The notes below the pieces were generated by a model, which was not told the DNA's origin, did no database searches, and saw nothing but the letters and a program-made list of their open reading frames with translations. 55,109 nt of DNA. Origin: Deltaproteobacteria bacterium. Its GTDB lineage: Bacteria > Desulfobacterota > Syntrophorhabdia > Syntrophorhabdales > Syntrophorhabdaceae. The stretch spans positions 1 to 55,109 of the forward strand of contig JAKLET010000026.1 of NCBI GenBank assembly GCA_022711595.1. The letters run 5' to 3'. Below, one piece after another: positions 7,734 through 47,039 of the stretch; the stretch's first letter is position 1; each line of letters starts with the position of its first letter. Position numbers and translations under genes: made by a program.

Positions 7734-7824
7734 CAGTGAAGCGTAAGGCGTGAAACCGTAAGGTGTAAATGCTTTACCTAAGTTTCTTAACGCTCAAGCG
7801 GTTCAAGCACTTAAGCATTCAAGC
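7734..7824. repeat. Heptamer array followed by 8/9-mer array
   Basis: Positions 7734-7768 hold five exact-length 7-base units (CAGTGAA, GCGTAAG, GCGTGAA and so on). Positions 7791-7824 hold four units of 8 or 9 bases ending in TYAAG (CGGTTCAAG, CATTCAAG). The block fills the gap between the carboxypeptidase start and the larA stop. Confidence 0.7.
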
Positions 7825-7830
7825 CGCCTT

Positions 7831-14407: not shown

Positions 14408-14434
14408 AGTTTCGACCTGTTCAATGGTTGAAGA
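14408..14434. repeat. Short nonameric repeat array
   Basis: Three 9-base units (AGTTTCGAC, CTGTTCAAT, GGTTGAAGA) between the livF stop and its terminator. Degenerate relative of the other nonamer arrays. Confidence 0.5.
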
Positions 14435-14435
14435 T

Positions 14436-14470
14436 TGACCCCTGATGTCCATTATTGACATCGGGGGTCA
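14436..14470 (+). terminator. Hairpin terminator of the liv operon
   Basis: Arms 14436-14449 and 14457-14470 form a 14-bp stem with a single G-T wobble and a 7-base loop, followed by GTTAGTTTTG. The T tract is weak but position and stem strength fit termination 33 bases after livF. Confidence 0.75.
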
Positions 14471-14578
14471 GTTAGTTTTGTCTGATCTGTTTGCGCATGC
14501 ACGGACAGCCGTGTTATCGGTGCTGTCATAATGGGATTGGCTGTGGGCCCCGGTCTTTGCCGGAATGAGGCCGGACGA

Positions 14579-24240: not shown

Positions 24241-24346
24241 AGGCAGGTGAGGGGTCATAGGTCATGGGTTACAGGAAAGACCCGTCATCACATCACCCCC
24301 CCCATGCTTTTCCCATAACCCATAACCCCTCACCTATGACCTGCCT
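24241..24346. repeat. Inverted pair of heptameric arrays
   Basis: Left arm 24241-24275 has five 7-base units starting AGGCAGG; right arm 24312-24346 has five units which, on the other strand, also start AGGCAGG. Units two and three occur in swapped order in the two arms (TGAGGGG then TCATAGG on the left; TCATAGG then TGAGGGG on the right). The element lies between the Crp stop and the promoter of the ANTAR gene and may also fold as a terminator. Confidence 0.85.
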
Positions 24347-24352
24347 CTTTTA

Positions 24353-29265: not shown

Positions 29266-29505
29266 ATGAAAAAAGCATTGGTGTTATTTATCGCCGTCGT
29301 GATCGGTATCGCCTTTACAGTTACCGGCTTCGCGCAGGAGAAAGTCCAGCCGGCACCGAAGGTGGAGCAGCAGGTGCAGACAGACAAGCCTGTTGACAAA
29401 CCGGCAAAGACGAAGAAGGCGAAAAAGAAAGTAAAGAAACCAAAGAAAGTAAAGAAGACCAAAGCCGCGCCTCCTGCCGAGGAGAAACCGGCGGAAACAA
29501 AGTAG
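29266..29505 (+). CDS. Small exported Lys/Pro-rich protein
   Basis: A 79-residue protein with a clean signal peptide (MKKALVLFIAVVIG and cleavage near GFAQ) and a mature part of about 55 residues that is almost only Lys, Pro, Ala and Thr (KKAKKKVKKPKKVKK). No family recognised; similar basic low-complexity periplasmic peptides are common and may bind the wall or anionic polymers. The ATG at 29266 is fixed by the ribosome site AAGGAGG at 29251-29257. A hairpin (29224-29242) precedes it and a two-way terminator follows. Confidence 0.75.
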   Translation: MKKALVLFIAVVIGIAFTVTGFAQEKVQPAPKVEQQVQTDKPVDKPAKTKKAKKKVKKPKKVKKTKAAPPAEEKPAETK

Positions 29506-33937: not shown

Positions 33938-33973
33938 GACGTTGAAGCTGTTCAAACGGCTGCAGCCGTCTTG
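33938..33973. repeat. Nonameric array
   Basis: Four exact 9-base units (GACGTTGAA, GCTGTTCAA, ACGGCTGCA, GCCGTCTTG) directly ahead of the ribosome site of the YjbQ gene. Confidence 0.65.
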
Positions 33974-34406: not shown

Positions 34407-34413
34407 GAAGACA

Positions 34414-34532
34414 GCTTGAGTTGCTTGAATGCTTGAGCCGCTTGAGCGCTAAAACCTTCACGCCTCGATTCACATTTAAAAATCTTTTAACCAGAGAAAC
34501 CAAACAAACTGAACTAACCGGATAAACCGCTA
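34414..34532. repeat. Composite array: nonamers, heptamers, nonamers
   Basis: 34414-34448 has GCTTGAGYN-type units (9, 8, 9, 9 bases); 34456-34476 has three heptamers (CTTCACG, CCTCGAT, TCACATT); 34488-34532 has five exact nonamers of AAACCRRAC type. The block fills the gap between YjbQ and the carB stop. Confidence 0.75.
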
Positions 34533-40756: not shown

Positions 40757-40827
40757 GGTTTGAGCCGTTTCAACCGGGAAATCCGGGAAAACTTAAAAAA
40801 GGTTGCAGCCGCTCAAGCATTCAAGCT
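40757..40827. repeat. Nonameric arrays beside epmA
   Basis: Units GGTTTGAGC, CGTTTCAAC, CGGGAAATC, CGGGAAAAC (40757-40792), an 8-base A-rich unit, then GGTTGCAGC, CGCTCAAGC, ATTCAAGCT (40801-40827). The array reaches to within five bases of the epmA stop codon. Confidence 0.7.
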
Positions 40828-40831
40828 GTCT

Positions 40832-41879: not shown

Positions 41880-41972
41880 GGAGAGGTGACCGAGTAGGCC
41901 GAAGGTGCTCGCCTGCTAAGCGAGTGTACGGTGAAAGCTGTACCCAGGGTTCAAATCCCTGCCTCTCCGCCA
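41880..41972 (+). tRNA. tRNA-Ser (GCT anticodon)
   Basis: Acceptor GGAGAGG (41880-41886) pairs with CCTCTCC (41962-41968), discriminator G and encoded CCA (41970-41972). Anticodon arm CTCGC/GCGAG with loop holding GCT at 41915-41917, reading AGY serine codons. The long variable arm is typical of class II serine tRNA; TTCAAAT forms the T loop. Confidence 0.97.
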
Positions 41973-41981
41973 TTCTAAAGA

Positions 41982-42172
41982 CAGTTCCAACCGTTTGAAC
42001 CGTTCAATCCGTTCCAATGTTAATAAAACCTTAAATCATAAGATGTTGACCATTTAAAACCAATCGATCAACTTGAATTGTTTAAACCGCTTGAGCGTTA
42101 AGAAAAACCCTATAAAATGAGGTTCATGGTCTTTAAACGTTCAAACGGCTCGAGCGGCTCAAACGGTTGAAA
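41982..42172. repeat. Nonameric arrays between tRNA-Ser and the patatin gene
   Basis: Three blocks of exact 9-base units: 41982-42017 (CCGTTTGAA, CCGTTCAAT, CCGTTCCAA), 42071-42097 (GTTTAAACC, GCTTGAGCG) and 42137-42172 (CGGCTCGAG, CGGCTCAAA, CGGTTGAAA). The rest of this 206-base gap is AT-rich without other features. Confidence 0.8.
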
Positions 42173-42178
42173 CTGTTT

Positions 42179-43039
42179 TTAAGGTTTTCCGATAAGGGCT
42201 TTGATTTTCGGCAGTGCTTTTTCCGTCGCCTTTATGCCTTCTTCCATAAGGACCTTTTTCCGGGAAAAATCGAACATCGAAACACCCTTCGTGTCGGGTT
42301 CGATGACGACGTCGGCGTAGCGCAGCTTTGACTTCGCGTTCTCGTGCATCATGATCGATATGGATTGGGCTATGACATCGATAACGGAGCCTATGTCATT
42401 CTCTTTGATGTCCTTTTGCAGGTTCACCGCAATGACGATATCGGCGCCCTTTGAACGTGCGATGTCGCAGGCGATATTGCTTGTCACGCCGCCATCGACA
42501 AGGGTCCTGCCTCCGAAATTTACAGGGACGAACACCCCGGGGATGGCCGATGATGCGTGTATGGCCCGGGCGAGAGAACCTTTTTCAAGCGTTAAGGTTT
42601 CGCCGGAGTTGAGGTCGGTGGCAACAGGATAAAAGGGGATCTTTGTTGCCTCGACAAGCTTGACCTTCGCGTTCTGTTCCACGAAGGCTTCGATCCTGGT
42701 CCCCTGAACCGGTCCCATCTTTGATGAGGCAATCGAAAAGTCGAGGATATCTCCCTTGTTTATCTTGAATGCCGCCCATTCGAGCTGAAAACTGTCGGGG
42801 TTTGAGGCATATATGCCGCCGATAAGGCTTCCGACGCTTGTGCCCACGATCATGTGGATGGGTATCTTTTCCTTTTCCAGGACCCTCAGCACACCGACGT
42901 GTGCGAAGCCTTTGGCCGATCCTCCTCCGAGGACAAGGGCGACCCTGGGCTCAGATTTTTTTGCCCACGGTGCGCTCTGGCATGAACATAACAGGAAGAC
43001 GAGTGAAACCGCAAAAAGTATTGAGCGTTTAATAACCAC
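42179..43039 (-). CDS. Patatin-family phospholipase lipoprotein
   Basis: A 286-residue patatin-like acyl hydrolase. A type II signal peptide ends in the lipobox LLCSC with Cys20. Oxyanion loop LVLGGGSAKGFAHVG, nucleophile elbow GTSVGS with Ser68 and catalytic DGG with Asp182 are all present, so it should be active. RssA-like in size; probably acts on lipids at the periplasmic face of a membrane. Start GTG overlaps the MBL stop by 11 bases. Confidence 0.93.
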   Translation of the reverse strand: MVIKRSILFAVSLVFLLCSCQSAPWAKKSEPRVALVLGGGSAKGFAHVGVLRVLEKEKIPIHMIVGTSVGSLIGGIYASNPDSFQLEWAAFKINKGDILDFSIASSKMGPVQGTRIEAFVEQNAKVKLVEATKIPFYPVATDLNSGETLTLEKGSLARAIHASSAIPGVFVPVNFGGRTLVDGGVTSNIACDIARSKGADIVIAVNLQKDIKENDIGSVIDVIAQSISIMMHENAKSKLRYADVVIEPDTKGVSMFDFSRKKVLMEEGIKATEKALPKIKALIGKP

Positions 43040-46136: not shown

Positions 46137-46146
46137 GAGATGTTTT

Positions 46147-46176
46147 GATATAAGCTATAATAGCCTGTATTGTCAA
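46147..46176 (-). promoter_or_regulatory. Promoter candidate for tRNA-Met
   Basis: Minus strand TTGACA (46171-46176), 18-base spacer, TATATC (46147-46152), 10 bases ahead of the tRNA. Confidence 0.6.
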
Positions 46177-46186
46177 TAAAAAACGG

Positions 46187-46395
46187 GTCATAGGTGATAG
46201 GCCATAGGTTATAAAAACAGCTTCAATGTTTAAAGATTTGCGAAACGTTTCAATGTTAAAAAAAAGCGGCTAACTTGACCAAGATGTTTATAGTGTGCCT
46301 TACGCCTCAAGGTTTTTGAAATTTGAAACTTTGGAACATTGAAACTCTGAAACCGTCCTTCCCATCGCCTATAACCCATTACCCATGACCTGTTT
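46187..46395. repeat. Composite heptamer/nonamer element with inverted ends
   Basis: Left end: four 7-base units 46187-46214 (GTCATAG, GTGATAG, GCCATAG). Then five exact 9-base units 46219-46263. Inner right: two heptamers at 46298-46311, five nonamers 46312-46356, and five heptamers 46361-46395 (CCTATAA, CCCATTA, CCCATGA) that are the inverted counterpart of the left end. It fills the gap between tRNA-Met and queE. Confidence 0.8.
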
Positions 46396-46397
46396 TT

Positions 46398-47039
46398 TTA
46401 CTTTATCCCCAGGATCTTGTGCATCTGGAGACCGAGGCGCCATTTGGGGTGGGCGAGGCAGTATTCGAGCGCGGACAGGGTGTTCTCCCGTGTAGCGGGT
46501 CCGTGAACAGGCTGAAGAATGAAATGCGGGAAGTGGAGTCCTTCGAAGGATGCGGGATCGATGGTGCCCTGGGGGAAAAGCAGCTTGAGCTCGTTGCCGG
46601 TGCGGATGGCGATCTTTGTGCCTGCCTTGGGGCTCACGGTGATCCAGTCGATGCCGGGCGGGACCGGCAGGGTCCCGTTCGTTTCTATGGCGATCTCCCA
46701 ATCCCGTTCATGGAGCGCCTCGATGAGGGCATCATCGACCTGGAGCGCGGGCTCTCCGCCGGTGAGTATGACATATGGCCGGTACATCCCCTGGCCGGAT
46801 GAGGGCAGGCGAGCATGGATCACGGCGGCCAGGTCGCGGGTGCTTTCGTACGTTCCCCCGCCGGGGCCGTCGGTGCCGACAAAGTCTGTGTCGCACAGCG
46901 GGCAGAATGTTTTGTGGCGGTCCTCTTCCCTGCCCGACCAGAGGTTGCAGCCCGAGAACCTGACAAAGACCGCGGGCCTGCCGGCCTGAACACCTTCGCC
47001 CTGGAGGGAGTAGAAGATCTCTTTAACAAGATATGCCAT
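46398..47039 (-). CDS. queE: 7-carboxy-7-deazaguanine synthase
   Basis: A 213-residue radical SAM enzyme converting CPH4 to CDG in queuosine synthesis. The start FYSLQGEGVQAGRPAVFVRF is the QueE signature; the cluster Cys are in SGCNLWS and FCPLCDTDF with the widened spacing between first and second Cys typical for QueE. SAM-binding GGEPAL follows. Last gene of the queH-DUF2905-queC-queE operon. Confidence 0.96.
   Translation of the reverse strand: MAYLVKEIFYSLQGEGVQAGRPAVFVRFSGCNLWSGREEDRHKTFCPLCDTDFVGTDGPGGGTYESTRDLAAVIHARLPSSGQGMYRPYVILTGGEPALQVDDALIEALHERDWEIAIETNGTLPVPPGIDWITVSPKAGTKIAIRTGNELKLLFPQGTIDPASFEGLHFPHFILQPVHGPATRENTLSALEYCLAHPKWRLGLQMHKILGIK

Follow-up and report, generated by a model that had tools for sequence, protein, structure and literature searches.

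The gap between a tRNA-Ser gene and a patatin-like phospholipase gene in a deltaproteobacterium of the Syntrophorhabdaceae contains runs of short, degenerate tandem repeats, and the question raised by this locus is what such arrays are and what they might do at the end of a gene. The window, by which we mean the whole stretch of 55,109 nucleotides that was analysed, is contig C19 of a host genome of 3.55 Mb in 58 contigs. A sequence-only reading had described the repeats in it as a family of strictly 9-base arrays confined to gaps between genes. The focus module, at 41976-42182, and its neighbours are laid out as follows.

41880-41972, + strand: tRNA-Ser(GCT), upstream of the focus module (ARAGORN, Rfam)
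41976-42018, + strand: outer left arm, four degenerate nonamers (GTTNNAACN), directly after tRNA-Ser (lag-9 array)
42019-42134, no strand: spacer with inner hairpin 42087-42103/42130-42148 (RNA fold)
42135-42178, - strand: outer right arm, four nonamers, abutting the stop of the patatin-like gene (lag-9 array)
42179-43039, - strand: patatin-like phospholipase gene, with the module at its stop (Pfam PF01734, E 2.2e-29)

In the RNA fold, the outer arms pair to give a 28-bp helix (41976-42005 with 42152-42181), and the fold z of the element is -7.07 for the + strand and -8.38 for the - strand. The plasmid records searched with the focus array returned no match.

Array census

The census is based on 849 kb of the host genome, including 89 kb of gaps, and seven related genomes were sampled at 86-370 kb apiece. 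Genes were called with a simple hexamer-based caller, and both coding DNA and shuffled versions of the gaps served as references for the gaps between them. The stretches of G000 come mostly from long contigs; those of G002 were partly picked for nonamer matches, so its array rates are biased upward.

Arrays with a lag of 9 number 58 in the host gaps (0.4 in shuffles), those with a lag of 7 number 50 (0.8 in shuffles) and those with a lag of 8 number 12 (0.1 in shuffles); there is little above background at lags 5, 10, 11, 12 and 13, and the signals at lags 14 and 18 are the multiples to be expected. The lag-9 signal anticipated by the earlier reading is thus present in intergenic DNA, at z = 16 over shuffles, but 9 is only one of three periods, since lag-7 and lag-8 arrays are also far above shuffles. 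Coding DNA does not carry the arrays at equal frequency: the density of lag-9 arrays is 0.65 per kb in intergenic and 0.033 per kb in coding sequence. Over the whole genome, a two-unit nonamer pattern has 170 matches, compared with 5 for the reversed control. Real arrays thus occur across the whole genome, yet they do not form a single 9-base family.

Nine array sites had been listed in the window. Degenerate 9-mers are found at 2692-2731, 34487-34530, 40757-40801, 41978-42019 and 42135-42178, but four of the nine sites are weak or have another period. The array at 14408 is too weak to call, and the sites at 33938 and 46219 are each one single weak arm. Nor is the unit strictly 9 bases long, since 46312-46357 has period 8 and the genome holds about as many period-7 as period-9 arrays. 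Arrays are almost absent from coding sequences; of the listed sites, 15722 falls inside an ORF of the simple caller, one without a Pfam hit and with an uncertain start codon. Two further features can be seen in the window. A 17-bp hairpin at 14433-14473, shortly 3' of the stop of an ABC-transporter gene, adjoins the weak 14408 site and resembles an ordinary terminator; and a AAAGAAAGT period-9 repeat at 29424-29464, in a predicted ORF (lysine-rich tail), is unrelated to the gap arrays.

Position and polarity

The contact with stop codons that had been noticed for several arrays turns out to be strong: an array lies at most 5 nt from the stop in 44 of 112 tandem gaps, and at most 5 nt from the start in 3 of the 112. 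Arrays occur in 41% of convergent, 22% of tandem and 11% of divergent gaps (Fisher p = 2e-10), and in 38%, 15% and 10%, respectively, when G000 is taken alone. Behind stops, the polarity is 55:1 for GCTTGAACC, 31:0 for RGGTNAT and 15:0 for TTYCAGG; family A2 is evenly split.

Unit families and module architecture

When clustered, the 401 arms collected from seven genomes fall into about ten unit families with periods of 7, 8 and 9, where one family and one unit length had been claimed. The 9-mer families include GCTTGAACC, AAACCRRAN and TAKGTCCTA, the 8-mer families include TTGAACYC, and the 7-mer families include YATNACC, CCTGRAA, TCRCARG and RARGCGT; 9-mers and 8-mers together account for over half of the arms. 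How well a base is conserved depends strongly on its position in the unit, and at least one position is nearly free.

These ten or so families share one common architecture. Whatever the unit length, an arm is made of about four degenerate units and spans 30-36 nt. Heptamer arms have 4-5 units (mean 30 nt) and nonamer arms 3-4 units (mean 33 nt); longer arms are very rare for both, and only this absence of a long tail is informative because arms of fewer than about three units are hidden by the detection threshold. Arrays of the same family within one gap are inverted in 77 cases and direct in 11, and the family matches in 71 of the 86 two-arm gaps (17% by chance). The spacer between arms is mostly 20-110 nt. 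A module of one family can sit inside that of another, and where a gap has several families their order is mirrored (CAC, ADA, CBC; for example, heptamer-nonamer-heptamer; permutation p < 0.001). The arrays first reported are real, but most of them are the two arms of hairpins, which had gone unnoticed along with the inversion of same-family arms, the fixed polarity, the four or so units per arm, the nesting and the swapping of units between species.

The window contains several further examples.

2689-2731, + strand: single nonamer arm from the stop of a pfkB-type gene (lag-9 array, orthologues)
7748-7828, no strand: gap with heptamer-like (GGCGTAA) and nonamer/octamer (TTCAAGCGG) arrays (sequence, weak array call, TRF 7802-7824)
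24241-24347, no strand: heptamer module directly 3' of a stop, left arm 24243-24275, right arm 24306-24347 (lag-7 array)
34410-34446, + strand: nonamer arm 3' of the stop of a UPF0047 gene (TRF; gene Pfam PF01894)
34487-34530, - strand: nonamer arm of the AAACCRRAN family in the gap of the 34410-34446 arm (lag-9 array)
40757-40829, no strand: small module, nonamer arm 40757-40780 and inverted arm 40801-40829 (helix 40758-40775/40801-40818)
46179-46215, + strand: heptamer arm of the GGTNATR family, outer level of a nested module (27-bp helix 46179-46209/46367-46397)
46216-46250, no strand: weak partner arm of the inner module (fold of 46137-46397)
46312-46357, no strand: period-8 arm of the inner module, previously called 9-base (TRF period 8, lag-8 array)
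46360-46397, - strand: partner heptamer arm, abutting the stop of the gene at 46398-47039 (lag-7 array, fold)

The region 46137-46397 is a heptamer hairpin around an inner octamer/nonamer hairpin, with a fold z of -4.67; one congener is without a module at the gap of the 46360-46397 arm. Both its heptamer arms (46182-46215 with 46360-46395) and the heptamer module at 24241-24347 are missing from the earlier list. The heptamer family of the latter module is kept at the orthologous gene end in G011, and an arm of identical family is kept in G005 at the gene end of 2689-2731. The arms at 34410-34446 and 34487-34530 belong to different families in one gap. The 40801-40829 arm abuts the stop of an EpmA-like gene, and the fold z of its gap is only -1.4; no strong fold was found for 7748-7828 (z 0.0).

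Distribution differs between units. The GGTNATR heptamers are present in all 12 genomes of the genus that were searched (16-327 matches each). In the phylum, 34 of 297 genomes have exact matches, patchily among other families and in some cases about 200, with the reversed control almost always zero. The nonamer GTTTGAAC is mostly limited to about half of the genus. GGTNATR arrays are abundant in scattered distant families (for example, in G054, G091, G126, G099, G288 and G174).

Turnover between species

The unit found behind the patatin-like gene depends on the genome: nonamers in the host, CCTTGAAC octamers in G005 and G006, and heptamers in G010 (GACCTGC) and G002 (GACTTGT). In all five genomes the array starts within a few nucleotides of the stop. 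The corresponding gap in G011 is without a module and retains the neighbouring tRNA-Ser. Since congeners have another unit here, the repeats look like elements of a rapidly changing RNA hairpin located at message ends. The congener loci L076, L078, L073 and L074 at this gap contain near-perfect long arrays, such as (GACCTGC)x14, (GACTTGT)x10 and (CCTTGAAC)x9, which sit on the stop-adjacent arm; the far arm, where readable, is shorter and degenerate.

Other gaps can be compared in the same way. The tRNA-Met gap of the window contains a composite module in the host, one of heptamers in G005 and one of nonamers in G002, and none in G006 (TAA-AAGGCGGCTTTTCTG-TTGACA). In one gap of G002, G006 and G010, the homologous spacer and the downstream terminator are kept and both arms differ, being of the GACCTGYGA type or the AAACCTGA type. 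Of 181 orthologous gaps, 37 have arrays in both species, compared with 26.8 +/- 2.5 after permutation stratified by gap type and length, and only 11 of these 37 have a family in common. When the family has changed, the arrays are 63% identical and the remaining gap 75%; when the family is shared, the arrays are 77% identical. Among 20 syntenic gaps with an array in one species only, the gap with the array is the longer one in 15 (median +70 nt). The best reading of these comparisons is that modules are gained and lost whole next to stops, and that the unit family is quick to change between species. Turnover and presence or absence are observed, as are the anatomy, position, polarity and folding potential of the modules.

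How modules might arise

Adjacent units have a similarity of 0.775 in one and 0.710 in the other of the two largest families, and units from other loci 0.763 and 0.702, respectively; families B, D and H show modest local similarity of neighbouring units. Recent slippage is rejected for the main families A and C, in which neighbouring units are hardly closer than units from other loci. Since neighbours are hardly more alike and the unit number is sharply peaked, simple selfish expansion through slippage is disfavoured; slippage also happens, as the existence of perfect expansions in congeners indicates. Cognate arms pair no better than same-family arms elsewhere (31/53, p = 0.27), so base pairs at degenerate positions are not maintained individually. 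Specific co-evolution of both arms, tested in two ways, is unsupported overall. The data on unit similarity, on conservation within the unit and on arm pairing speak for constraint or copying that operates unit by unit.

One alternative is that the arrays are a mutational by-product under little selection, with strand slippage of 7-9 nt making the arrays and template switching copying one arm to the other. Template switching can give rise to hairpins and repair them (PMC8794818), the perfect expansions at the patatin gap agree with such an origin, and so does the joint change of family in both arms over a homologous spacer. We nevertheless think it quite unlikely, given that adjacent units in the main families are no closer than those from other loci, that the unit number peaks sharply at 4 with few long arrays, that conservation inside the unit is so position-specific, and that cognate arms are no closer than foreign ones. 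Another idea, which we consider doubtful enough to be called a long shot, is a dedicated, undescribed machinery that writes modules at gene ends with about four degenerate units per arm, the position-specific variability being there from the moment an array is made, and that can rewrite the word of both arms. Such machinery would explain why neighbours are as unlike as units from other loci despite the fast turnover of arrays.

Alternatively, the modules could be selfish miniature mobile elements of a REP- or MITE-like kind, with no host function, gene ends as tolerated sites and a transposase as the putative mover. Whole-module presence or absence, nesting, and the patchy spread within the genus and over the phylum are all in keeping with this, as are the boundary A(A/G)AC(A/G)G (at 29% of array ends versus 5% of others) and a small number of long near-copies at scattered sites, among them C1:181925 and C1:205838 (92% over 181 bp). 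Of the traits of MITEs, inverted ends and whole-module presence or absence are seen; near-copies are few, with most modules sharing only unit families, and target duplication is not evident by eye. A search for a RAYT link was negative: GTAG REPs flank a RAYT gene, whereas none of ten PF01797 tyrosine transposase loci (host and nine congeners) is directly flanked by a module, and a PF01797 search of the array-rich G002 gave no match. Co-occupancy of orthologous gaps above chance speaks against selfish elements as well, and we regard this explanation as possible but on the whole unlikely.

Longer repeated elements were seen at a few places. Near-copies (86-92% over 120-180 bp) of composite modules with GGCGTAA heptamers and nonamers are found in the host at C1:181925-182119, C1:205838-206064 and C45:8695-8892. 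A different element of about 100-150 bp (GCTCCCTTCGTTGCCTTCGTCG...CCTCCTCGTCGCCTCGGTATC) is found in G011 C50 (L235-L236) and G003 C1 (L230), in the gap after gene C50|27; it has up to three tandem copies in G003, and a similar stretch lies in host C1 163843-164048.

Function

The median fold z of gaps with arrays is -2.6, -4.3 and -3.7 in three genomes, compared with about -0.5 for gaps without arrays. Where the arrays lie and how they are oriented, how strongly they fold as RNA and how they are enriched in convergent gaps all suggest the mRNA 3' end as the site of action. Our preferred reading, in which we place about even confidence, is that the arrays are the arms of a superfamily of stop-proximal hairpin modules, REP/BIME-like in where they lie and how they behave, that are gained and lost whole and act on RNA as terminators and/or exonuclease barriers. 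Transcription, the function in termination or stability and the means of movement are what we infer.

In a module, a spacer of some 20-110 nt separates an arm of about four degenerate 7-, 8- or 9-mers from an inverted arm belonging to that family; the polarity is fixed, and a new module may nest in the loop of an older one. Immediately past the stop, the mRNA would end in or run into an extended, imperfect stem-loop, and this stem-loop would act as a transcription terminator, in both directions in convergent gaps, and/or as a barrier to 3' exonucleases. As a conjecture, the regular mismatches, one every 7-9 bp, could prevent the palindrome from forming a perfect DNA hairpin, which would be lethal or unstable, and protect the DNA from hairpin cleavage.

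The case for termination proper is weak. An intrinsic terminator is a short GC-rich hairpin with a U-run behind it; the hairpin of the modules is strong, and a U-run of four or more follows only 21% of last arms, compared with 7% of random 12-mers. Separate canonical terminators are found at 5% of convergent array ends versus 14% (p = 0.03), and G-U exceeds A-C among mismatches in tandem gaps (56:44, p = 0.0495; 51:49 in convergent gaps); both of these differences are borderline and would fail multiple-test correction. In some gaps a canonical terminator lies beyond the module, which is therefore not always the terminator, and an exonuclease barrier fits equally well as termination. Termination, mRNA stability, nucleoid binding and selfish expansion had all been suggested at the outset; a role of the RNA at the 3' end fits best, and selfish expansion of the slippage type does not fare well.

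Neither the genome-wide sharing of unit consensuses nor the polarity is explained by a hairpin function alone. If each unit were bound by a sequence-specific protein (of the nucleoid, condensin or RNA-binding kind), with the paired four-site arrays as a platform, one could account for the position-specific conservation of units with free positions, the fixed polarity and the preference for four units irrespective of their length. Because many unrelated families with three periods, all different from the helical repeat, take one another's place at given gene ends within one architecture, it is unlikely that one protein reads all arrays, and we consider the platform improbable. Four units close to a stop, with the G-rich strand behind it in heptamer families, also recall the G-quadruplexes from four G-tracts by which the GGGNATC heptamers of Xanthomonas and Nostoc were explained. 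A three-tetrad motif is present in only 13 of the 401 arms, however, and nonamer families without G-tracts obey identical rules. Quadruplexes were rejected as a general cause, and we find it very hard to credit them with the arrays.

Comparison with known repeats

The STRR heptamers of heterocystous cyanobacteria form several intergenic heptamer families per genome. The earlier comparison with them is apt in form, both being intergenic tandem arrays of several families, but the heptamer is not the exclusive length here; the present modules mix periods of 7, 8 and 9, form hairpin arms and occur in another lineage.

Among published systems, the nearest are the GTAG- and CGTC-tagged REPs/BIMEs and the GGGNATC heptamers. 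The REPs/BIMEs are intergenic inverted hairpins, less than 20 bp from ORF 3' ends in convergent pairs (Di Nocera 2013, PMC3733652). REPs lie mainly in convergent and tandem gaps, with many families per genome and a patchy taxonomy; each is a single palindrome of 20-40 bp, and the CGTC type has stems of 8-9 bp and no dedicated transposase (PMC3733652). The modules are likewise inverted, near ORF 3' ends, more frequent in convergent and tandem than in divergent gaps, divided into many families and patchy, and their boundary GAC(G/A)G/C(C/T)GTC recalls the CGTC/TGTC tag. A REP has an unpaired GTAG or CGTC tag at one end; the A(A/G)AC(A/G)G boundary of the arrays can pair with its partner end. The modules differ from REPs in that the arms are arrays of about four units and 30-36 nt, giving a 28-bp helix at the focus module rather than a single short palindrome; and in that the units change between species at one site. 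Classical CGTC REPs (GTCATTCCGGC...GCCGGAATCCAGG) also occur in the loops of host array modules, at L033 (C1 82859-83132), L039 (C1 205098-205402) and L045 (C12 99418-99637).

The GGGNATC heptamers of Xanthomonas and Nostoc have one free position and prefer four units; they lie within 50 bp of stops or overlap them, on the sense strand, and are avoided in divergent gaps, with inverted pairs noted (Rehm 2015, PMC4692102). They were treated as one family and explained by G-quadruplexes (PMC4692102). Our modules share the preference for four units, the proximity to stops and the fixed strand, but a 7-nt unit with one free position fits only their heptamer families; the modules have periods of 7, 8 and 9 and many families, mostly lack a quadruplex motif, and have systematically inverted and nested arms. 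The TAACTGA direct repeats of Beggiatoaceae are abundant intergenic heptamer arrays with a patchy phylogeny, but consist of one exact heptamer, mostly just upstream of starts and not inverted (MacGregor 2015, PMC4679880). The modules are also abundant in intergenic DNA and patchy in phylogeny; in contrast, they are built of degenerate 7-, 8- and 9-mers, inverted and placed behind stops.

In the open literature searched, we found no description of mixed 7-, 8- and 9-mer arms or of unit swapping. The modules link two sets of observations that were kept apart in the literature consulted, the REP hairpins at gene ends and the heptamer tandem repeats at stop codons, and they suggest that G-quadruplexes may not be needed to explain why the latter prefer four units. 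Orthologous gene ends that differ only in the word of the hairpin are a natural experiment, through which both the function and the origin of the modules become directly testable.
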